Of a stretch of DNA of 34,958 bases, positions 269-9,142 are shown piece after piece. The translations under genes were made by a program, and so were the position numbers. The stretch spans positions 1 through 34,958 of the forward strand of contig JAFDGZ010000027.1 of the NCBI GenBank assembly GCA_019309045.1, read 5' to 3'. The notes under the pieces were generated by a model. It was given only the letters and a program-made list of their open reading frames with translations, ran no database searches and was not told the origin of the DNA. Source of the stretch: Deltaproteobacteria bacterium. Lineage in GTDB: Bacteria; Desulfobacterota; Syntrophobacteria; BM002. Positions within the stretch are counted from its first letter, which is position 1. Every line of letters starts with the position of its first letter.

Positions 269-967
269 TTACCAGGGAAACACCAGCCGGTGAAAGGCCT
301 CAGCCAGTTCGAAGTCTTCTCCCTGGGCCATCTCCCGGCACCTCTGGCGCAGCCAGCCATCGAGATCTTCAGGATTGGGGAAGCCCTGTATCTGGCTCTG
401 GTGGCAGCGCAGCGCTGCTAGTTTGAGGGCAAAGGTGTCAGTGATATCCGAGCGATAGTTTATGTCTTCCGCAGCCCAGAACAGTATCTCCTCTACTTTG
501 TGGGGCTCCAGACCTTCCTCGAGAAGGTCTGGATACGACAGATGATCCCTGGCATAGGGAAACACTGCATCCAGGGTAACCTGGCCGGCGATGCGGTGGT
601 CACGATGCCACAGGTAGCGCCGATAGGGATCCAGGGTGACCACCACCCTGGGCCGAAAAATGCGCAGCCAGCGAACAATTTGTTTGCGAAATTCCGGGGT
701 GTCTTCCAGGCCTTGGTCAGGATAACCCAGAAATACCACCTCTCTGACTCCCAGGATCTCTGCAGCAGCAAGCTGTTCTTTCTGTCTGATCTGCGCCAGT
801 TGCTCAGGTTTGACGCTGCGGTCCGCTGTACCCTTGTCGCCGTTGGTGCAGACAAGGTAGGCAACCTGCTTGCCCTGCCGCACCCAGCGAGCCACTGTTC
901 CGGCCGCCCCGAATTCGGCGTCATCTGGATGAGCAGTAACCACCAGTACGTCAACTGTCTCTTTCAT
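269..967 (-). CDS. PIG-L family N-acetylglucosaminyl deacetylase (LmbE/BshB/MshB-like)
   Basis: A 232-aa zinc-dependent deacetylase of the PIG-L/LmbE family, whose members remove N-acetyl groups from GlcNAc conjugates such as GlcNAc-malate (BshB), GlcNAc-inositol (MshB) or GlcNAc-PI. The metal-binding and catalytic motif AHPDD is at residues 12-16 and the second metal-binding segment HRDH is at 121-124. Its length is close to bacillithiol BshB (about 235 aa) and shorter than actinobacterial MshB. The ATG start has a strong GGGAGG site. It is the last gene of the leftward run that includes an MshA-like glycosyltransferase, a GNAT protein and an S51/CysS-C fusion, which suggests it deacetylates the glycosyltransferase's product. 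The substrate is inferred; related enzymes also act on antibiotics and surface sugars. Confidence 0.88.
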   Translation of the reverse strand: MKETVDVLVVTAHPDDAEFGAAGTVARWVRQGKQVAYLVCTNGDKGTADRSVKPEQLAQIRQKEQLAAAEILGVREVVFLGYPDQGLEDTPEFRKQIVRWLRIFRPRVVVTLDPYRRYLWHRDHRIAGQVTLDAVFPYARDHLSYPDLLEEGLEPHKVEEILFWAAEDINYRSDITDTFALKLAALRCHQSQIQGFPNPEDLDGWLRQRCREMAQGEDFELAEAFHRLVFPW

Positions 968-1078
968 CCCGACCTCCCGCTATTGCTTGCTCCGCGAAGG
1001 AAAGCTTGTGAATAGAAGCATGGACTGCTACGACGTGCCTGCAACCTGCTCAACCAGCATTGGAACCGGCTGGTCGGC

Positions 1079-2308
1079 TCAGTTTCTCACAGCATGGTAT
1101 TCCCTGAACACCGTGCGGTACTGCTCTATCATTGCTGTGGCTACGCGCGCCCAGCTGTATTGCTGCACTGAGGCACGGATCTTCTCGGGCGACAGAGTGT
1201 GCCTCCTGGCAATGAAAGAGTCGATGCCGCTTGCCAACAACCTGGCTGAACCGTTGCCCACTAGATGTCCAGTCTCGCCCTGGCGCAGGACGTCTTCCAT
1301 GGCTCCCACCCGGGTGGCGACCACAGGCGTGCCCGAAGCAAGAGCTTCCAGGGCCACAAGGCCGAAGCTCTCATAACGGGATGGCAGTACCAGAACATCT
1401 GCAGCACTGTAGTATGGCGGCAGATCAGTTTGTGGCAGACTACCAGTAAAAGTTACCCGCTGGTGGATTCCCAGCTGGCGGCAAATTCTCTGCAGGTTTC
1501 GGGTCTCTGCTGTGTCCGGGCCGTCGCCACCAACTAGCACCAGTCGCAGCCACGGCAGGTGCTGCAGGTATTTTACCGCCTCCAGCAGCCTTTCTATGCC
1601 TTTCAAAGGAACAAATCTCCCCACATACAGGATGATTGCTTCATCCGGGTCAAAAGCAAGCTGCTCTCTAGCGGCAAGTTTGTCAATTGGCCGAAAAATA
1701 TCAAGGTTTACGCCACAAGGAACCACGTCAACTGCCTCGGCGGCAACATCATAGTGCTGTTGCAATTGTTGCTTTTCACTGTCTGTGGCCACCAGGATGC
1801 GCTGGCAAGTTTTCGCCAGTCGCATCTCAGCGTCTATGCGAAGCCGTGGTTCTCTTTCCTCAGCAGTTGCACCGTTTTTCATGGCAGCAACTGTGTGAAA
1901 CATGAACATATGAGGTATGAGCCATCTTTGCTGGGCCATCTGTCCCACTTCTCCCGAGAGCCAGTAGTGGCTGTGGATGATGTCATAGGAAAGAGATTTT
2001 TCCCAGCGCAATCGATCCATCTTCTGGAAGAACTCGTCCAGATGGCTATAGAGAGCCATTTTGTCCTCTGGGTTGCCATTGCCTGTTTTCACATGGAGCA
2101 AGCGCACATTGTCAGCCAGTGTGACGCTCTTGCCACTGCCGCCACCGTGGTGCCGAGTATAGATGTCCACCCGATGACCGCGTTTGCCCAGTGCCACTGC
2201 CAGTTCCTGGACATAGACGCTCATGCCTCCCGTGTCCCTGGTTCCCAACCTGCCTAGAGGGCTGGCGTGAACACTCAGCATGGCTATTTTCAACGTTTTG
2301 GTGGGCAA
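1079..2308 (-). CDS. GT4 family glycosyltransferase, MshA-like
   Basis: A 409-aa GT-B fold glycosyltransferase (family GT4). The N-terminal motif TRDTGGMSVYV and the segment YDIIHSHYWLSGEVG closely resemble MshA, which transfers GlcNAc from UDP-GlcNAc to inositol phosphate; sucrose-phosphate synthases share the first motif. The C-terminal half has the nucleotide-sugar segment VLPSRYESFGLVALEALASGTPVVA, with the retaining-GT4 E-x7-E pattern. The TTG at 2308 is chosen because GAGGTGA lies five bases before it; a GTG at 2317 would add three residues. It sits about 90 bp after the GNAT gene and 111 bp before the PIG-L deacetylase gene, the same pairing of classes used to start mycothiol and bacillithiol synthesis. 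Acceptor unknown; a role in surface glycan synthesis is the main alternative. Confidence 0.87.
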   Translation of the reverse strand: MPTKTLKIAMLSVHASPLGRLGTRDTGGMSVYVQELAVALGKRGHRVDIYTRHHGGGSGKSVTLADNVRLLHVKTGNGNPEDKMALYSHLDEFFQKMDRLRWEKSLSYDIIHSHYWLSGEVGQMAQQRWLIPHMFMFHTVAAMKNGATAEEREPRLRIDAEMRLAKTCQRILVATDSEKQQLQQHYDVAAEAVDVVPCGVNLDIFRPIDKLAAREQLAFDPDEAIILYVGRFVPLKGIERLLEAVKYLQHLPWLRLVLVGGDGPDTAETRNLQRICRQLGIHQRVTFTGSLPQTDLPPYYSAADVLVLPSRYESFGLVALEALASGTPVVATRVGAMEDVLRQGETGHLVGNGSARLLASGIDSFIARRHTLSPEKIRASVQQYSWARVATAMIEQYRTVFREYHAVRN

Positions 2309-2407
2309 GTGAATCACCTCGGGCCAGCCTTTCAGTCAACTGTGATCTTTTTTCCAGCTGCAGCAAAACAGAGCCGCCCCTGCCTGCATTTTTGCTCGAC
2401 TACCAGG

Positions 2408-3376
2408 TCACTCAAGAACAATCTCACATCTGTAGAGGGGAACAGGCTTGCCTCCAAGACGCCGTTTATAGGGTTCGTTTCCCTTGAGAAAATCGTATAT
2501 TTTTAAGCCTCGGCCAATACTGTCTCGGATGCTCAAAATCTTGCTGAGCAAACCAACACTGAGGGAACTGAATCTGGCATCATAGCCATTGTTGTAGAGA
2601 TAGACCCTGGAATTGTAGTCGAAACACATGGCAGCGGCTGCAGCCTCACCGTCGATCTCGAGAAAAAAGAGCTTCAGCAGGCGAGCCTCTGCCATTGCCT
2701 CTGCAAGCTCCCTGAAATATGTCCTCATCTGTTCAGTCATAAAAGCGGCCTTGTCCGCCCTGCTCAAACCAAACAGAGCAAGGAAGATCTCCATTTTTTC
2801 CCTTACCTCACTGACTTGCTGCACAAGATGGAAATTGACCTGGCCACTGTTGTACAGCCGTCGCAGCTTCCTTCTTGTCTCATGCCGTTCCTTGGCAGTG
2901 AGCTGCTGCAGAAAGTCCTCCCAGGTCGGCGGCAGCATCAGCTCCAGGATGACGTCTTCCTGTCGGCTGCTAACCTGGCATTTCTCTGCAGCGGCCCTGG
3001 CGGCCAGCTCTGTGAGCACCATGGACTCCGGCCGCACCAGCCCCAGGTTCAACCGGTTTACCCCCTGCTCTCTGAGGTACTGCAGCAATACCTGAAAGAA
3101 TTGCTGTCCCTGCCCCGGGGCAACCACGAAATCCAGGTAGTCGCATACGTCAGGATCACCCAGGAAGCGGGCCTCCTGTGCCTGCACTACAATGGGTGCC
3201 ATACCGATGGGCTCCTCCTCGCAACTCACCAGGCAGATATGCGGAGGCAGCCCCTCGGCAAAAATACGCCACCACACCTGCAGCCATGGCGGCAGTACAA
3301 AAGGGCACTCCCACCTCAAAGAGTAGGCAGCATTGCGCCAGTACGAGTCGAGACCCTCCAGGGTCTCCAGCTTCAC
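2408..3376 (-). CDS. GNAT-fold acyltransferase (Acetyltransf_6/BioF2-like, FemAB-related)
   Basis: A 322-aa protein resembling the BioF2-like/CelD acetyltransferase group (PF13480), which has two GNAT-like folds related to FemAB aminoacyl transferases. The central to C-terminal part is typical: an Arg/Lys-rich helix with RHETRRKLRRL (about residues 164-174), then FLEIDGEAAAAAMCFDY and VYLYNNGYDARFSSLSVG, and the closing FLKGNEPYKRRLGG. Such proteins transfer acyl or aminoacyl groups to amines. The start is a GTG with a weak ribosome site, so the exact N-terminus is uncertain. It lies between the S51/CysS-C fusion and the GT4 gene on the same strand. If the operon makes a sugar thiol, this gene would fill the slot of MshD (GNAT) in mycothiol synthesis; that is inference. 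Confidence 0.75.
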   Translation of the reverse strand: MKLETLEGLDSYWRNAAYSLRWECPFVLPPWLQVWWRIFAEGLPPHICLVSCEEEPIGMAPIVVQAQEARFLGDPDVCDYLDFVVAPGQGQQFFQVLLQYLREQGVNRLNLGLVRPESMVLTELAARAAAEKCQVSSRQEDVILELMLPPTWEDFLQQLTAKERHETRRKLRRLYNSGQVNFHLVQQVSEVREKMEIFLALFGLSRADKAAFMTEQMRTYFRELAEAMAEARLLKLFFLEIDGEAAAAAMCFDYNSRVYLYNNGYDARFSSLSVGLLSKILSIRDSIGRGLKIYDFLKGNEPYKRRLGGKPVPLYRCEIVLE

Positions 3377-3461
3377 AGAGTATTGCTTGCCTGCTATTTT
3401 CAGCTTACATCCCCCCTGCAGCTGTTCTCAGGATTTGCATCTGCTCCATGGTGACAGCAGC

Positions 3462-4715
3462 CTAAGACTTCAGGCGCCAGCGAGGTCCCTTCTCTGTATC
3501 TTCCACAAGGATACCTGCCCGCGCCAGGCACTGGCGAAGTTCGTCGGCCTCCCGCCACTTTCTCGCCTCTCTGAATTTTTGCCGCACAGCGAGCACTTCT
3601 TCCACCAGGGGCGTCAACCACTCTTCTCTGTCCCTCGGCAAGCACTCCAGTCTCAGGCCGACAACCACCATGAGATCCCGCAAAATCTCTCGTGCCTGGG
3701 AGATTGCCTCTTCACTCTCCAGAGCCTCTCTAGCCCGCCATATTGTGCGGTCGAGCTCCAGGAGGGCATTGGTCACTTCCCTGGGCCGATGCCCTGCCAT
3801 GGCAGCATCAAAGGCATCCTTGATGGCATGGATTTTCTCCCAAAATGAATCTCCCTCGTGCTCCAGGTCCCGAGCACCAGGTACCATTGCTGCAGTCGCT
3901 GCAGTGCCATTCTTCGCCAGTCCCTTGCCCCGCAATACATCCAGGGGAAAAGACTCTCCCGTTCGAAAGATCAGCTGCTCAGTGCCGCGCCACAGGGTAA
4001 CTGTGCCGATGCCCCTGATCACTGCCTCGTTCTTGGCAAGATTCATGAGACAGGCAGTATGCTCATCCAGACCCAGAACAGCTACCTCTTCCGGCAGCAG
4101 GCCCCGGAGCTCTGCAAATCGGCGCTGTCCCATGAAGCAGCAGCTGGTATCATGGCTTCCTCCCTCTGCATTGTTCCAGTGGGGGATCACCACTAGATTG
4201 AAACCGAAAGGTGCCAGGAGGTCCAGGCCAGCCACCCAGTGCAAGTCTTCACCCACTTTGTAGATTTCATAGACCGGCAGGGTATAGCGCCCCACTGTCA
4301 AGGCCGCGGCACTGGCTGCTACCAGGCAGCCGCCTTTTTCTACTTGCTCGAGAAGTATTCCTGGAATTGGCGTCTGTTGCCACTGGCGAACCGCATAAGT
4401 GGGACTGCCAGGACCAATCAGAATGAAATTGGCATGCCGCAACTTGTGCAGCGCCTGCTCCAGTTCGTAGAGAGAACTCGTCTCCTTTGACTTGAAAGAA
4501 GCCACCTCCAATGGTTGCTGAATGCGGTTCTGGAAGTATTCCTTTGCTCGCCGCGATATCTCGTCCACATTGAGCTGGAACCCGGCGGGTGTATCCAGGA
4601 ACACCGCCCGAGGTGGCTCTGGCACCCTTTTAAGGAGTTCTCTGTGGACTGCCACCATGGTGGCAGTCAGCTCTCCCGAACCCATGAGAGCAATGGTTCC
4701 TTTCCCTGCAACCAT
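3462..4715 (-). CDS. Peptidase S51-like domain fused to a cysteinyl-tRNA synthetase C-terminal region
   Basis: A 417-aa two-part protein. Residues 1 to about 265 resemble the S51 / class I glutamine-amidotransferase-like fold (cyanophycinase, dipeptidase E): an opening ALMGSGE, a nucleophile-elbow-like VAASAAAL with Ser135, and a conserved block around HWNNAEGGSHD (179-189) and LGLDEHTA. After a linker rich in Ala and Gly, residues about 285-417 match the end of cysteinyl-tRNA synthetase: FWEKIHAIKDAFDAAM, a helical DALR-like stretch, then REARKWREADELRQ and GILVEDTEKGPRWR, nearly the wording of the E. coli CysS terminus. The HIGH and KMSKS motifs are absent, so it cannot activate cysteine and is not a tRNA ligase. 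It is the first gene of the four-gene leftward run. Function unknown; a role with cysteine- or cysteinyl-containing molecules is inferred. Confidence 0.78.
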   Translation of the reverse strand: MVAGKGTIALMGSGELTATMVAVHRELLKRVPEPPRAVFLDTPAGFQLNVDEISRRAKEYFQNRIQQPLEVASFKSKETSSLYELEQALHKLRHANFILIGPGSPTYAVRQWQQTPIPGILLEQVEKGGCLVAASAAALTVGRYTLPVYEIYKVGEDLHWVAGLDLLAPFGFNLVVIPHWNNAEGGSHDTSCCFMGQRRFAELRGLLPEEVAVLGLDEHTACLMNLAKNEAVIRGIGTVTLWRGTEQLIFRTGESFPLDVLRGKGLAKNGTAATAAMVPGARDLEHEGDSFWEKIHAIKDAFDAAMAGHRPREVTNALLELDRTIWRAREALESEEAISQAREILRDLMVVVGLRLECLPRDREEWLTPLVEEVLAVRQKFREARKWREADELRQCLARAGILVEDTEKGPRWRLKS

Positions 4716-4968: not shown

Positions 4969-5481
4969 TCAATCCCCTTCCTTGCCCTTTTTCCAATGCA
5001 TGGTCTGACACGCCACCCCGAAGACGACCAGCACCGCATAGAGCATCCAGGTGAAAATACTGTTCCAGTACAAGCCCCCCACCAGAAGGGTGGCACCAGC
5101 GAGTGAGGACAGCGCGATCAGGGCAAAATCAAAAAAGAAAAGCAGCAGCGCTGCTGCCAGGCTGCCGCCGCCTGCTACCGCGACCAGAGTCCAGCCAGGG
5201 CCCATGAGGCCAAAAAGAGAAAAGAGAAAAATCAGCAGATAGGCCCCCATGATAAACCCCGCTATGCCCACAGCCAGATGCTGCGCCAGTATGGCCAGCA
5301 GCACACCTGCAAGTCCGGCAGCCAGGGGGACAATCACCATGAGAAGCGGGGAATGGCCGACCATGAACTGACTGGCCAGATTGGAGGCGAAGATAAACCC
5401 AGCCGCCCCCACAAAGATCCAGTACAGTTGGCGTCCCATGGTGAGCAGCGCCAGGCCTACAAAAATCGCGGGGATATGCAT
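4969..5481 (-). CDS. Polytopic inner-membrane protein (DUF4203/TM7S3-like)
   Basis: A 170-aa protein made almost entirely of hydrophobic helices. About six or seven transmembrane segments can be counted, rich in Gly, Ala and Leu, and a short Lys-rich tail (HWKKGKEG) is probably cytoplasmic. The overall look is that of the DUF4203/TM7S3-type family of unknown function. The ATG is preceded by AGGAGG at a spacing of about eight bases, so the start is secure. It stands alone: the thiol-like operon begins 254 bp to its left on the same strand but has its own candidate promoter. No catalytic residues were recognised. Confidence 0.7.
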   Translation of the reverse strand: MHIPAIFVGLALLTMGRQLYWIFVGAAGFIFASNLASQFMVGHSPLLMVIVPLAAGLAGVLLAILAQHLAVGIAGFIMGAYLLIFLFSLFGLMGPGWTLVAVAGGGSLAAALLLFFFDFALIALSSLAGATLLVGGLYWNSIFTWMLYAVLVVFGVACQTMHWKKGKEGD

Positions 5482-5639
5482 GAGTCTACCTCCTGGTGAG
5501 AACTATTATGGGGGATTCTCTTGCTGAAATCCAGCTCGCAGAAAGGGTACGGTTCACACCCAGGTTCTGAAGCCCGTTTCGGCAAGGGGCTGCGGCTAAG
5601 GGAAGAAAGACGACACTGGCAGCTCTTTAACCGTACGGG

Positions 5640-5682
5640 GATCGCGGCCGTGGCCCTTGTGGCGGTAAGATGCCGCTCCCGC
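5640..5682. repeat. REP-like element
   Basis: GATCGCGGC (5640-5648) and GATGCCGCTCCC (inside 5661-5682) match the two halves of the motif found intact at 23171-23194, here split by an extra 12 bases or so. Such GATCGCGGC...GCCGCTCC elements are common dispersed intergenic palindromes in proteobacteria. Confidence 0.5.
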
Positions 5683-5812
5683 AGGAGTTGCAGTTCCCAC
5701 TTTGACATGCTTGGAGGCTTCCACCCCTGGTCTGCATTCTGGTTTTGCTTTACTTGGAGCCGTTATGGAGGATCATCCTTCTGGGGCTTTGCGCCCTGGT
5801 CTAAAGCACAGC

Positions 5813-6056
5813 GGTTGATGGCAAAATGAAAATGCACCCCCTTCACTAGCCGATTGCTGGCAGCTAAAACCTCAAGGCTGAGCCAGCGGCCAGTACTACA
5901 ATGGCGCCATGGCGCAGTTGCTTGCCGCAATAGATAACAACACAGGACAACGCAGGCTGAAGCCTGCGGCTACCAACTTGTTGCCGTGCCTCCAGTTCCC
6001 TCTCCGCCTGGTTGATGGTACTGGTTATCAGGTGCACTTTCATTTTGCCATCAACC
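5813..6056. repeat. 244-bp segment bounded by 26-nt inverted repeats (MITE-like)
   Basis: The 26 bases at 5813-5838 begin GGTTGATGGCAAAATG. The 26 bases at 6031-6056 are their reverse complement with one mismatch. The 192 bp between them have no gene and contain the palindrome at 5951-5968. The arrangement resembles a miniature inverted-repeat element, but no clear target-site duplication was found. A very long-armed RNA hairpin is the alternative. Confidence 0.5.
5951..5968. repeat. Perfect palindrome, REP-like
   Basis: CGCAGGCT and AGCCTGCG are perfect arms separated by GA. The motif 'cgcaggctgaagcctgcggctac' belongs to a commonly dispersed intergenic type. It lies inside the inverted-repeat segment 5813-6056. 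Confidence 0.55.
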
Positions 6057-6176
6057 TGTAGCCCTTCAATTGCACAGGTCACCACAACAAGGCATCGAAG
6101 CGATTGAAGCACCACGAACAGTATGCTGCCCGGACAACAATGTCTGCCCATGTCAGAAATAACCACCCGGTTGCAT

Positions 6177-6719
6177 CTACTCTATGTCGTATTCTGCCTC
6201 GGTGAGGAGCTGCAAGAGTCTTCGCCGCTGAGGCGTGCGTTCTGGCAGAAAAAGGGGCTCGCATCGCTTGATGATTGATTTGCGAGAGACCACTGCCGCA
6301 GCAAAGGCTAGACAGGTAGGTTCGCCGCAGTCGCCGCAATTGGTGCCCGGAAGTTCCTTGAACACTGCCAATGGCCCGAGCCGCGCTTGTTTGCGCAGCA
6401 CCGGAGTTATGGATTCCTTGCGGTCATGGACGTCATTTATCAGGTTTCTGAGACAATCGCAGATTTTGCGGGCCTCGCTTTCGGACTTCACTGCTGTCAC
6501 TGTAATCTGCCGCGGTCGAATGGCTACAATGTGTCCCTCCTCCATGTAGTTGAGCTCGTCGTGGCCATGGATGTAAGTGCAGCCGCGGATTTCTGCCGCC
6601 AGATAAGGCAGCAGTTCGCTGATATCCTCTGGGAGGTCTATGATGGCGTTGAACTTGGTGGAGGTGGGCATGCACTCGATATTGAGCAGGTGCATATTCA
6701 CTCTATCCAGCAATGGCAT
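6177..6719 (-). CDS. 4Fe-4S protein with an ACS/CODH gamma-like cluster motif
   Basis: A 180-aa protein whose C-terminal third carries GTNCGDCGEPTCLAFA followed by a fourth Cys in IIKRCEPL. This C-x2-C-x4-C...C pattern is that of the Fe-S domain (PF04060) found at the N-terminus of the corrinoid Fe-S protein gamma subunit and in RnfB-like proteins. The N-terminal 120 residues form a soluble domain that I do not recognise. The open frame continues upstream to 7097, but ATG 6719 follows AGGGGGCGG, and the extra residues overlap the DnaJ gene, so they are excluded. It follows the DnaJ-like gene by 25 bp in the same direction. It is probably an electron-carrying or regulatory protein in anaerobic metabolism; no partner is visible in the window. 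Confidence 0.75.
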   Translation of the reverse strand: MPLLDRVNMHLLNIECMPTSTKFNAIIDLPEDISELLPYLAAEIRGCTYIHGHDELNYMEEGHIVAIRPRQITVTAVKSESEARKICDCLRNLINDVHDRKESITPVLRKQARLGPLAVFKELPGTNCGDCGEPTCLAFAAAVVSRKSIIKRCEPLFLPERTPQRRRLLQLLTEAEYDIE

Positions 6720-6744
6720 AGCTGACCGCCCCCTGTGAATTTCC

Positions 6745-7200
6745 CTAGCCGCCTGCACCGGCCTGGTGGCTGAGGGTCTCGTAGGCTCTTTGAATTTCCT
6801 GAAACTTTTCTTTGGCAAGCTCTTGAAACTCCTCTCCGAGGTGAGTGACTCGATCCGGATGATACTTCTGGGCAAGCCTTCGATATGCAGAGCGGATCTC
6901 TTCAGCAGTCGCTCCGGGAGCGAGACCAAGAATTTCGTAGGGATCCCTTTCCTGGCGCCGCCTTTCGGTTGTCCCATCGCCCGCCTGGTGAGCTCTGCCG
7001 GCGCCGCTGCGGTATGAGCTCCCTGTTTGGCCATACTCTGCCTCTGGTCTGAGTCTCCTGAACAGCCAGAAGGCCAGGAACATGAGCAAGATGTCATCAG
7101 TCCATCCCAGACCCAGGATGGAGTCGGGGAAGGCGTCTATGGGGCTCATGAAGTAGAGCAGGCCCAGGAGCAAAGGCCAGTAGCGTTTCAACCAACTCAT
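6745..7200 (-). CDS. Membrane-associated DUF1232 (YkvA) - DnaJ domain protein
   Basis: A 151-aa protein. Residues 1 to about 50 hold one or two hydrophobic helices with the DUF1232/YkvA-like core [13 protein letters not shown] and GWTDDILL. A charged linker follows, then a C-terminal J domain starting [17 protein letters not shown] with the diagnostic HPD in QKYHPDRV. The J domain stimulates an Hsp70 (DnaK) ATPase, here probably at the membrane. ATG 7200 (AGGGA about seven bases upstream) is preferred over an upstream in-frame codon at 7266 because it starts directly at the hydrophobic segment. Position within a leftward run of nitrilase, this gene and an Fe-S protein suggests co-transcription but not shared function. 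Confidence 0.85.
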
Positions 7201-7274
7201 GTTATTTCCCTGCTGAACAACAGCCAAAGAGGATGTCCTCTCAGAACAACATCCTCCATCAGTCAAAAGTGTTC

Positions 7275-8096
7275 CTATTCGAATGGACGCCTGTGAATGC
7301 CGAGCTGGCGCCAGAATTCACCGCGAAACTTGCGAGCTGTTCCCAGATTGACCTCCTCGATGCTCAGCTGTTCTCGCCTGTCCAACTCTACTGTAACCCA
7401 ACTTTCTAGATTGTCCAGGCTGCGGAACCATATTCTGAAATCATCTTTCGTGACCAGTTTGGGTGGTTGGACAATGAAACTGTGACCGCCATGCTGTCGA
7501 TACACCCGGCCGCCAATGCGGCTGTTGAAATCAGCGGTATTGATCCCCACAACCGGGATAAAATTGTCAAAAGCACGTACCAGGGCTCCATATTTCCAGT
7601 GGCCCCTGAGAAGGGGGAAAATGGCTTGATTTATAATCAAGTCAGCACCACGGTCCGTGAGAAGCCTTGCTGCTTCCGGCTGGCCCCAGAAATCGAGGCA
7701 GACTGGAATGCCCAGGCGCCCAAAATCTGTTTTGAATACCGGGTAGTCCCCGCTTCCAGGCGTGAGACCCATGCGGTCACGTTCCAATCTTCCCAGGTTG
7801 TATTTTCGTTGGCGCCCTACCAGGTTGCCATGCCTGTCAAAGAGCGTGGCTGTATTGTACCACTGGTTGCCCACCACCTCAATGAGTCCAGCAACGATGT
7901 AACAACCGAGTTTTTTCGCCATCTCCGCCACCACCTCATCTCCGGACCAGGGAAAGTACTCGGGCAAACAGGCAACGTCCACCTCCCTGCCGTAGCATTT
8001 CTCCAGCAGCCTGATGGCATGTCCTATGTTTCGAGGGTCGGCTAATTCTGGATAGGGTTTGGCCTGGACAATAGCAACTCGAACTGTCTCTTTCAT
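7275..8096 (-). CDS. Carbon-nitrogen hydrolase (nitrilase superfamily)
   Basis: A 273-aa amidase/nitrilase-superfamily enzyme with the full catalytic triad: Glu46 in CLPEYF, Lys98 in RKYNLG and Cys133 in PVCLDFWG. Members cleave nonpeptide C-N bonds in amides, nitriles or N-carbamoyl compounds, or transfer acyl groups. The short N-terminus [10 protein letters not shown] is the usual first beta strand. The ATG has GAGG at short spacing. It starts 48 bp after the EEP-family gene and probably shares its transcript. The specific substrate cannot be read from the sequence. Confidence 0.88.
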
Positions 8097-8143
8097 ATGA
8101 CCTCAACTTTCCGAATCGTCTGCAGTGTGCTTCAGCGGTCTGA

Positions 8144-8935
8144 CTAAGGTTGTTCAGCTCCAGGAGTCACCGAGAGCTCGAGCTTGGCCACGTAGGGAAA
8201 GTGGTCCGAAGGATAGCGGCCCTCCACGTTTTCATCAGCCACTACTGCGTCTACTACTACTATTTCGGGTACCACCAGGATCCAGTCGATTCTTCCTTTC
8301 TGGGGGATGCCTGTGAAGCCATGGTGAGTGTAACTCCTCTCATCTTCCTCCCTGCCCAGGACCTGCCAGGTGTCCACGAATGGGCCATCAGGGAGAGTAA
8401 GCACCTTGTGAACCTCAGAGCCCGGCATGTCGTTGAAATCCCCCATGAGTACTATCGGCTCCTCTCTATTGACGGACCAGTCACGAATAATTTTCGCCCC
8501 TTCTACCCTGGCCAGTCGCGAGATGTGGTCGAGATGGGTCACCGCACACCACACTCTCTGGCTGTTATCTCTCATCTCCAGGAGCACGTAACTCAGCATG
8601 CGCGGAAAGGCAGAATCCCAGCTCTTGCTGAGGTGAACATGAGGTGTTTCTGACAGCCAAAACTCTCCTCCTTCAACAGAGAGAAAATGATCTCGGCGAA
8701 AAAACAGGGTGGGATACTGGCAGTTGTCGTCCCAGTATCGCCAATCTGCAGAAATCTGGTAATCCTGCAGGTGCTGGCTCAGGTAAGAAAGCTGCGAGGG
8801 CTTGCCTTCCTGGGTGCCGAGCACATGCGGGCTATACTTCCTGATGGTCTCGAGGAGTATTTCACAGCGGTTCGCCCAGCAGTTGTCGCCGTCAAATTCA
8901 TTTTCAAAGCGGAGATTGAAGGTCATGACTCGCAA
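8144..8935 (-). CDS. Endonuclease/exonuclease/phosphatase (EEP) family hydrolase
   Basis: A 263-aa EEP-fold Mg-dependent phosphoesterase. It opens LRVMTFNLRFENE, has the metal ligand Glu in GTQEGKPSQL, the core VLMGDFNDMPGSE and the terminal RIDWILV and YPSDHFPYVA (catalytic Asp-His pair). Members include DNase I-like nucleases, sphingomyelinases and sugar-phosphate phosphatases; this small single-domain type is usually of unknown substrate. The TTG at 8935 is chosen because GGAG lies six bases before it; ATG at 8926 would remove three residues and ORF extension to 9001 has no ribosome site. No signal peptide is seen, so it is cytoplasmic. Confidence 0.85.
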   Translation of the reverse strand: MRVMTFNLRFENEFDGDNCWANRCEILLETIRKYSPHVLGTQEGKPSQLSYLSQHLQDYQISADWRYWDDNCQYPTLFFRRDHFLSVEGGEFWLSETPHVHLSKSWDSAFPRMLSYVLLEMRDNSQRVWCAVTHLDHISRLARVEGAKIIRDWSVNREEPIVLMGDFNDMPGSEVHKVLTLPDGPFVDTWQVLGREEDERSYTHHGFTGIPQKGRIDWILVVPEIVVVDAVVADENVEGRYPSDHFPYVAKLELSVTPGAEQP

Positions 8936-9142
8936 AAACAACTCCTTTCTCACCTGTGGAAAATTAGGCGCTCGTGGCAGGATTATATATAACTCCAGCA
9001 CGATGCCGCAAGCGGTAGCGACCAGCCCATATGGAAACTTTCTTGCTATCAGAAGCTAGCAACTGGTAATAAGGGTAGTGCCGACAACAATCTTTCCTGG
9101 CAGACTGAAACCTGTGCGAAGAGAGGCAAGCAGTCTCAGGCC

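Follow-up and report, generated by a model that had tools for sequence, protein, structure and literature searches.

Two sugar-based thiol pathways are the closest described systems to the locus considered here, namely mycothiol (MshA to MshD) and bacillithiol (BshA, BshB and BshC). A published gene survey found complete mshA-D sets in no phylum but Actinobacteria, whereas it placed bacillithiol genes in other phyla (PMC6282198). We investigated a four-gene operon of a Deltaproteobacteria bacterium, which lies in a stretch of 34,958 bases (the window) forming a single contig (C27) of a 3.9 Mb assembly that is 97% complete (G000, the window genome). The operon encodes an S51-type serine hydrolase fused to the anticodon-binding domain of cysteinyl-tRNA synthetase (CysRS), here called S51C; a transferase of the Acetyltransf_6 family, GNAT6; a glycosyltransferase with GT4 domains in Pfam, GT4; and a PIG-L family deacetylase. 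With a probability of roughly 0.55, we consider that it specifies a pathway for a mycothiol-type low-molecular-weight thiol, with a FemX-like aminoacyl-tRNA transferase in place of the ATP-dependent cysteine ligase MshC. No description of this four-gene cluster was found in the literature searched.

A preliminary description of this DNA had placed the four genes in close order on one strand and had proposed a search of other Desulfobacterota for the same linkage; the order was confirmed and the linkage recurs. All four open reading frames (ORFs) run head-to-tail on the minus strand, 85–111 bases apart, and their classes were confirmed by Pfam and NCBIfam. In an evenly drawn sample of 247 genomes of the phylum, for which S51C served as one query and GNAT6 was searched independently, S51C matches occurred in 31 genomes. 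The order S51C, GNAT6, GT4, PIG-L is repeated in seven families (some contigs being cut), and in an eighth family the four lie within a few kb of one another. Furthermore, about 85,000 species genomes were scanned with an alignment of GNAT6, which returned 493 relatives; neighbourhoods were counted in the best 80 loci. Since these were retrieved via GNAT6, its own constancy among them is by construction, and their organism names are the record titles of metagenome-assembled genomes. The 80 belong to Desulfobacterota, Dehalococcoidia/Chloroflexota, Nitrospirota and a small number of other groups. GT4 lies beside GNAT6 in 73 of the 80, with PIG-L nearby in 61 and S51C in 28, and several of the remaining loci are cut by contig ends. 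GNAT6 and GT4 share a strand in all 107 loci examined, mostly at a spacing of 60 bases or less, and in one Nitrospirota locus (L133) the S51C, GNAT6 and GT4 reading frames overlap by 4 bases. PIG-L is the most conserved of the four across families (63–70% identity), and GNAT6 relatives at 30–35% identity, from at least four further family groups, directly adjoin an MshA-like GT4. Pairwise distances of GNAT6 correlate with those of GT4 and PIG-L (r=0.86; 0 of 500 permutations). The four-gene linkage is real, old and well beyond chance.

Two types of cluster were distinguished. Type A, to which the window belongs, occurs in Desulfobacterota and Nitrospirota and has S51C but never an MshD-like gene; type B, mostly from Dehalococcoidia, has an antisense, MshD-like two-domain GNAT gene between GT4 and PIG-L and never S51C. 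S51C was counted in 26 loci and the MshD-like gene in 29, none having both. This split could reflect lineage and not function. In L065:5235-7965, L136:5300-7977 and about 17 other type A loci, two Gfo/Idh/MocA oxidoreductase genes, one of them fused to a ThuA-like part, are inserted between S51C and GNAT6. Inositol 2-dehydrogenase is among their best models, and the pair could modify the product in its cyclitol or sugar moiety.

GNAT6 scored 100.7 bits against Acetyltransf_6 (PF13480). Its sequence profiles gave no useful match to PDB chains, and its relationship emerged from structure comparison only. An AlphaFold2 model built with 82 relatives (predicted local distance difference test, pLDDT, 96) has the double-GNAT fold of FemX-like proteins and matched FemA (Z 21.2, 276 residues) and FemX (Z 20.9, 288 residues), as well as Sbb17/Sba18 with streptothrisamine (Z 20.2) and MprF-type lipid aminoacyl transferases (Z 16.5–19.3). 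MshD reached only Z 14.4 and 13.2 and a glucosamine N-acetyltransferase 14.7, with root-mean-square deviations above 5. FemX-type transferases use a single Lys, for which FemX Lys305 and DhpH-C Phe328-Lys329 are the described cases (PMC12945691). In GNAT6, Tyr303-Lys304 is invariant in 82 of 82 relatives and lies 18 residues before the C-terminus; helix 161–176 is basic, with R164, H165, E166, R169 and K170 invariant. The CoA-binding loop pattern occupies no fixed column in GNAT6 (at most 12 of 82), whereas it does in the MshD-like proteins (21 of 22), and the absence of a conserved loop counts against acyl-CoA as the donor. FemAB_like matched 70 of the 82 relatives, and Pfam FemAB (PF02388) 13 of them at E<0.01, the window protein not being among these 13. 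The GNAT had been described as MshD at first, and this assignment was ruled out by the fold (Z 13–14 vs 21), by the CoA-loop scan and by the presence of a separate MshD-like gene in related clusters. By its modelled fold, GNAT6 is a candidate FemX-like aminoacyl-tRNA transferase and a candidate for the missing cysteine-adding step.

The conventional routes were looked for in the host genomes. As noted at the outset, no adenylating cysteine ligase is visible: BshC is absent from the window genome and present in only 1 of the 247 phylum genomes, and nothing scored above the MshC cut-off in 50 genomes (28 plus 22, the window genome included). In the latter 22, carriers mostly from Dehalococcoidia, CysRS-family matches (E≤1e-20) were single in 18, two in 2 and none in 2; a single match must serve translation, so that no spare copy is left as a ligase. 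In G254, the nearest genome that is closed and the one containing L065, there are just two such matches, of 512 and 783 amino acids (aa); they are interpreted as CysRS and as a fusion of CysK and CysRS like that of the window genome. GshB (PF02955) was clear in only 3 of 31 genomes (G018, G020 and G058), the window genome having just ATP-grasp-like matches of 23–27 bits; GshA was not searched for. The preliminary description had asked whether the hosts lack bshC, mshC and gshAB and whether a complete bsh or msh pathway sits elsewhere; absence held for bshC, for mshC with the exception of one MshC-like gene (in G135, below), and for gshB in most genomes. The step left without an enzyme is thus the addition of cysteine, and GNAT6, which is constantly present, is proposed for it. 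The CysK-CysRS fusion itself, on contig C29 of the window genome (L063:6568-8880), joins a cysteine synthase (PALP) to a CysRS-like protein with DALR and CysS_C domains; many other genomes of the phylum carry ORFs of similar length with CysRS-like matches. An altered class-I HIGH region and a distribution that does not track the cluster led to its rejection as the ligase.

The CysS-derived domain reported earlier for the operon was recovered in S51C, which scored 34.8 bits against CysS_C (cut-off 23) and 21.9 bits against Peptidase_S51, just under the cut-off of 23.9. The predicted fold of the N-terminal part matches an S51-type peptidase (Foldseek E 4e-13). S135, H179 and E218 are invariant in relatives and form the putative catalytic triad, by analogy with cyanophycinase. 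Over its C-terminal part S51C aligns with CysRS, starting at the DALR-like helices and running to the end. In CysRS, R427, D436 and W432 contact G34 of tRNA-Cys, and R423 takes part in a water network (PMC12684709). Among 51 distinct S51C proteins, these columns hold Arg (50/51), Asp (51/51), Trp, Phe or Tyr (51/51) and Arg (51/51), respectively, while only 3 of 45 other CysS_C positions are equally strict (p=0.004). In addition, GNAT6 was present in 28 of the 31 S51C genomes, including families in which the genes lie far apart (p=1e-23, related genomes being counted as independent). Because the G34-contact residues are kept and the two genes co-occur, S51C probably binds tRNA-Cys and works with GNAT6. 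In L040:8088-8828 and seven other loci of one family group, S51C is unlinked from GNAT6 and is followed by a PNP_UDP_1-family phosphorylase gene.

The GT4 of the window scored 331 bits against the NCBIfam model MshA (cut-off 462.5), the next family reaching 134 bits and BshA 121.8 (cut-off 273.7). MshA was likewise the top model for full-length GT4s of five lineages (309–354 bits; next family at most 142). Grouping with polysaccharide enzymes had been raised as a possible objection, and the MshA model was ahead of exopolysaccharide (EPS) models by about 200 bits; this placement was made from family-model scores and acceptor residues. In the sucrose-phosphate synthase of T. elongatus, R105 and R178 bind the acceptor phosphate and Gln51 binds fructose (PMC7264703). 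The R105 and R178 columns correspond in the GT4 alignment to K78 and R154 of MshA and to K86 and R160 of the window, with Lys or Arg in 99 and Arg in 104 of 106 sequences. The Gln51 column is Met in MshA and in 104 of 106 GT4s, and the Ser159 column is Thr in MshA and in 105 of 106. By its pocket residues, GT4 would use a phosphorylated acceptor and appears MshA-like and not synthase-like. PIG-L scored 120.5 bits in Pfam; its NCBIfam scores were 104.5 for BshB1 (cut-off 182.5), 76 for Mca and 60.6 for MshB (cut-off 224). Its metal-site residues are invariant in relatives, and the experimental structures nearest to it are those of archaeal diacetylchitobiose deacetylases, followed by BshB and MshB, all of them enzymes that deacetylate a GlcNAc unit.

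Inositol-phosphate synthase was probed with PF01658, since PF07994, the other probe tried, misses the actinobacterial type (a Corynebacterium control was silent) and was dropped. PF01658 (Ino1) was found in 40 of 41 genomes with a strong GNAT6 match vs 100 of the 206 remaining genomes (Fisher p=1.7e-10, although relatedness makes the genomes non-independent), in 21 of 22 further carriers, mostly Dehalococcoidia, and three times in the window genome, which thus has the inositol-phosphate synthase that a mycothiol pathway needs. An inositol-3-phosphate synthase gene adjoins GT4 in one family (f30) and is linked in L114, L118, L131 and L139; an inositol monophosphatase (IMPase) gene adjoins GT4 in another (f22), and an IMPase, HAD or His-phosphatase family phosphatase is present in some clusters. 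Thiol-related neighbours were also seen. For the MshD-like gene of the 29 loci, MshD is the top family (97–112 bits; cut-off 163). In 33 loci, drawn from both types, PIG-L is followed by an antisense gene for a GloB-like metallo-hydrolase. A mycothiol-S-transferase gene (Pfam) lies in four loci, with 51 and 43 bits in the two scanned (cut-off 27), and a glutaredoxin-disulfide-reductase fusion in four others. These last two are few, yet in the expected direction.

Based on these observations, the following pathway is proposed. An inositol-phosphate synthase encoded elsewhere in the window genome would supply inositol phosphate, onto which GT4 would transfer the GlcNAc of UDP-GlcNAc. The resulting GlcNAc-inositol-P would lose its phosphate to a phosphatase, and PIG-L would remove the N-acetyl group to give GlcN-inositol. 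GNAT6 would then pass cysteine from Cys-tRNA-Cys onto the amino group of GlcN, with Cys-GlcN-inositol as the product. Where the cluster is of the Dehalococcoidia type, the MshD-like protein may acetylate this compound afterwards; such a gene is absent from the window's lineage, so the product there may be un-acetylated or may bear another cap. S51C probably binds tRNA-Cys by its CysRS-type domain, and might help to deliver or proof-read Cys-tRNA or else hydrolyse a conjugate of cysteine; no part of the scheme is less certain than its reaction. Linkage, co-occurrence, fold, conserved residues and gene absences were established computationally, and from them substrates, cysteine, tRNA donor, product and physiological role are deduced. 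The preliminary idea of an undescribed sugar-based cysteinyl thiol pathway is backed strongly, if circumstantially, by linkage, inositol and thiol-related neighbours and the absence of bshC, mshC and mostly gshB, while the role first given to the GNAT does not hold. More tentatively, and with somewhat less confidence than for the operon itself, we suggest that anaerobes of Desulfobacterota, Dehalococcoidia, Nitrospirota and other groups share a widespread, undescribed class of mycothiol-type thiols, for which a FemX-like enzyme would ligate cysteine from Cys-tRNA-Cys to GlcN-inositol, coupled in some lineages to a tRNA-Cys-reading hydrolase.

Several observations weigh against this pathway, and they are best considered together with the explanations they favour. 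That cysteine is the amino acid moved by GNAT6 is deduced, and the proposed equivalence of Lys304 and FemX Lys305 is a positional fit. FemX-like enzymes take many amino acids, and the fold alone cannot tell which; Orf11, for instance, glycylates streptothrisamine from Gly-tRNA (PMC12945691). It is conceivable, though unlikely, that GNAT6 puts another amino acid (e.g. Gly, Ala, Ser or Lys) from tRNA on GlcN-inositol to form a solute, a signal or a lipid head-group precursor, the more so as S51C, the chief hint of cysteine, is missing from the Dehalococcoidia-type clusters. The CysRS anticodon domain with its kept G34-contact residues, the MshD-like, GloB-like, mycothiol-S-transferase and glutaredoxin-reductase genes nearby, and the scarcity of other thiol pathways in the hosts all argue for a thiol. 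PF13480 includes enzymes annotated as acting on acyl-CoA, and the best NCBIfam match of GNAT6 is BspF, annotated as a crotonyl transferase (41 bits), with XrtA-associated FemAB also scoring. GT4, PIG-L and PF13480 genes are frequent in polysaccharide clusters. A surface sugar or glycolipid, with GT4 and PIG-L making a GlcN-containing glycan and GNAT6 acylating it from acyl-CoA, is nevertheless rather less probable still: flippase, polymerase, sugar-nucleotide and export genes are not recurrent among the linked families, inositol-phosphate synthase is linked and co-occurring, and the GT4 scores and the missing CoA-loop column point away from it.

A member of the window's own family (G135) encodes a 417-aa MshC-like CysRS paralogue (L180:8186-9439; 375 bits, cut-off 485) without an anticodon domain, with an MshC-like active site and beside OsmC. 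It is the sole clearly MshC-like protein among carriers, a 417-aa paralogue of a Nitrospirota carrier (G251; 182 bits) being more distant. Ordinary mycothiol made by an overlooked conventional MshC, with GNAT6 and S51C serving turnover, would suit this gene but seems improbable considering the 50 genomes without an MshC score above cut-off, the single CysRS-family match of most Dehalococcoidia-type carriers and the two of G254, interpreted as above. The scores of GT4 and PIG-L also lie below the MshA, MshB, BshA and BshB cut-offs. Overall identity of GT4 is near-equal for C. glutamicum MshA (34%) and the T. elongatus synthase (33%), so it is not decisive and the acceptor pocket was used instead; the GT4 profile likewise gives 350 bits to the synthase structure vs 356 to MshA. 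A synthase-like disaccharide (solute) pathway with unrelated neighbours is, however, very improbable, because Gln51 and Ser159 are replaced as in MshA, the linked deacetylase suits GlcNAc and not glucose, and inositol genes are linked. Against the thiol pathway there are, finally, the lack of an MshD-like match in the window genome, the non-adjacent PIG-L of families f22 and f30, the GshB of two genomes with a distant GNAT6 homologue, and the co-occurrence statistics, which treat related genomes as independent.

Table 1. Features of the operon in the window
Feature	Position	Strand	Size or residues
S51C: S51-type serine hydrolase fused to CysRS anticodon-binding domain	4715-3462	-	417 aa
CysS_C domain of S51C, aa 367-414	3474..3617	-	R378, R382, W387, D391 at columns of E. 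coli CysRS G34 contacts R423, R427, W432, D436
GNAT6: FemX-like double-GNAT protein, putative aminoacyl transferase (PF13480)	3376-2408	-	322 aa; proposed cysteinyl-tRNA:GlcN-inositol transferase
Tyr303-Lys304 of GNAT6, invariant	2465..2470	-	proposed counterpart of FemX Lys305 / DhpH-C Phe328-Lys329
GT4: MshA-like glycosyltransferase	2317-1079	-	412 aa; MshA acceptor-site residues M32, K86, Y118, T142, R160
PIG-L family deacetylase	967-269	-	232 aa; BshB1/MshB/diacetylchitobiose-deacetylase-like, metal-site residues kept

The contig begins 268 bases past the PIG-L stop, at base 1 of the window, and so shows no more of the sequence downstream of PIG-L in this genome. Upstream of the operon, positions 4969-9001 encode, on the minus strand, a membrane protein, an Fe-S domain protein, a DUF1232-DnaJ protein, a nitrilase-family hydrolase and an endonuclease/phosphatase-family protein, and none of these genes was associated with the cluster in the neighbourhoods of relatives. 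In one Desulfobacterota family, a radical SAM/SPASM protein is encoded upstream of GNAT6 (L152:6707-7837 and L155:9347-10477).

We know of no earlier tRNA-dependent low-molecular-weight thiol pathway. The cluster is a concrete candidate that predicts a product and, if the proposal is true, would identify the protective thiol still missing for these little-studied anaerobes, among them Dehalococcoidia and many relatives of sulfate reducers. It would also represent a new route to the cysteine-sugar amide bond, with cysteine drawn from protein synthesis and not joined by an ATP-dependent ligase, and could account for the puzzling S51/CysS_C fusion. Moreover, Dehalococcoidia include dehalogenating lineages, in which thiols bear on the handling of metals and xenobiotics.

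Compared with known systems, S51C has the predicted fold and the putative Ser/His/Glu positions of S51 peptidases (dipeptidase E, cyanophycinase), but unlike them it is joined to a CysRS tRNA-binding domain and sits in a thiol-type operon. FemX, DhpH-C and Orf11/Sbb17 have, like GNAT6, the double-GNAT fold (Z 20–21, 268–288 residues) and a basic helix, as well as an aromatic-Lys motif of which Tyr303-Lys304 is the proposed counterpart; sequence identity to the FemABX group is 12–14%, and no link to an inositol-GlcN thiol was found for any described member. The streptothrisamine enzymes offer a precedent for a tRNA-dependent amide bond on an amino-sugar compound. With bacillithiol the cluster has in common a GT4 next to a BshB1-like PIG-L deacetylase; it differs in having no BshC, in its GT4 scores (122 bits to BshA vs 331 to MshA) and in inositol genes, not malate, as the acceptor source. 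Unlike mycothiol, it is without MshC and always has a FemX-like transferase instead, none of its GT4, PIG-L and MshD-like proteins reaches the respective equivalog cut-off, and it belongs to phyla of anaerobes. The mycothiol pathway of Actinobacteria nonetheless shares with it an MshA-like GT4 with the acceptor residues, PIG-L and inositol-phosphate synthase and, in some clusters, an MshD-like acetyltransferase (Dehalococcoidia-type) or, in a few, a nearby gene of the mycothiol-S-transferase family.

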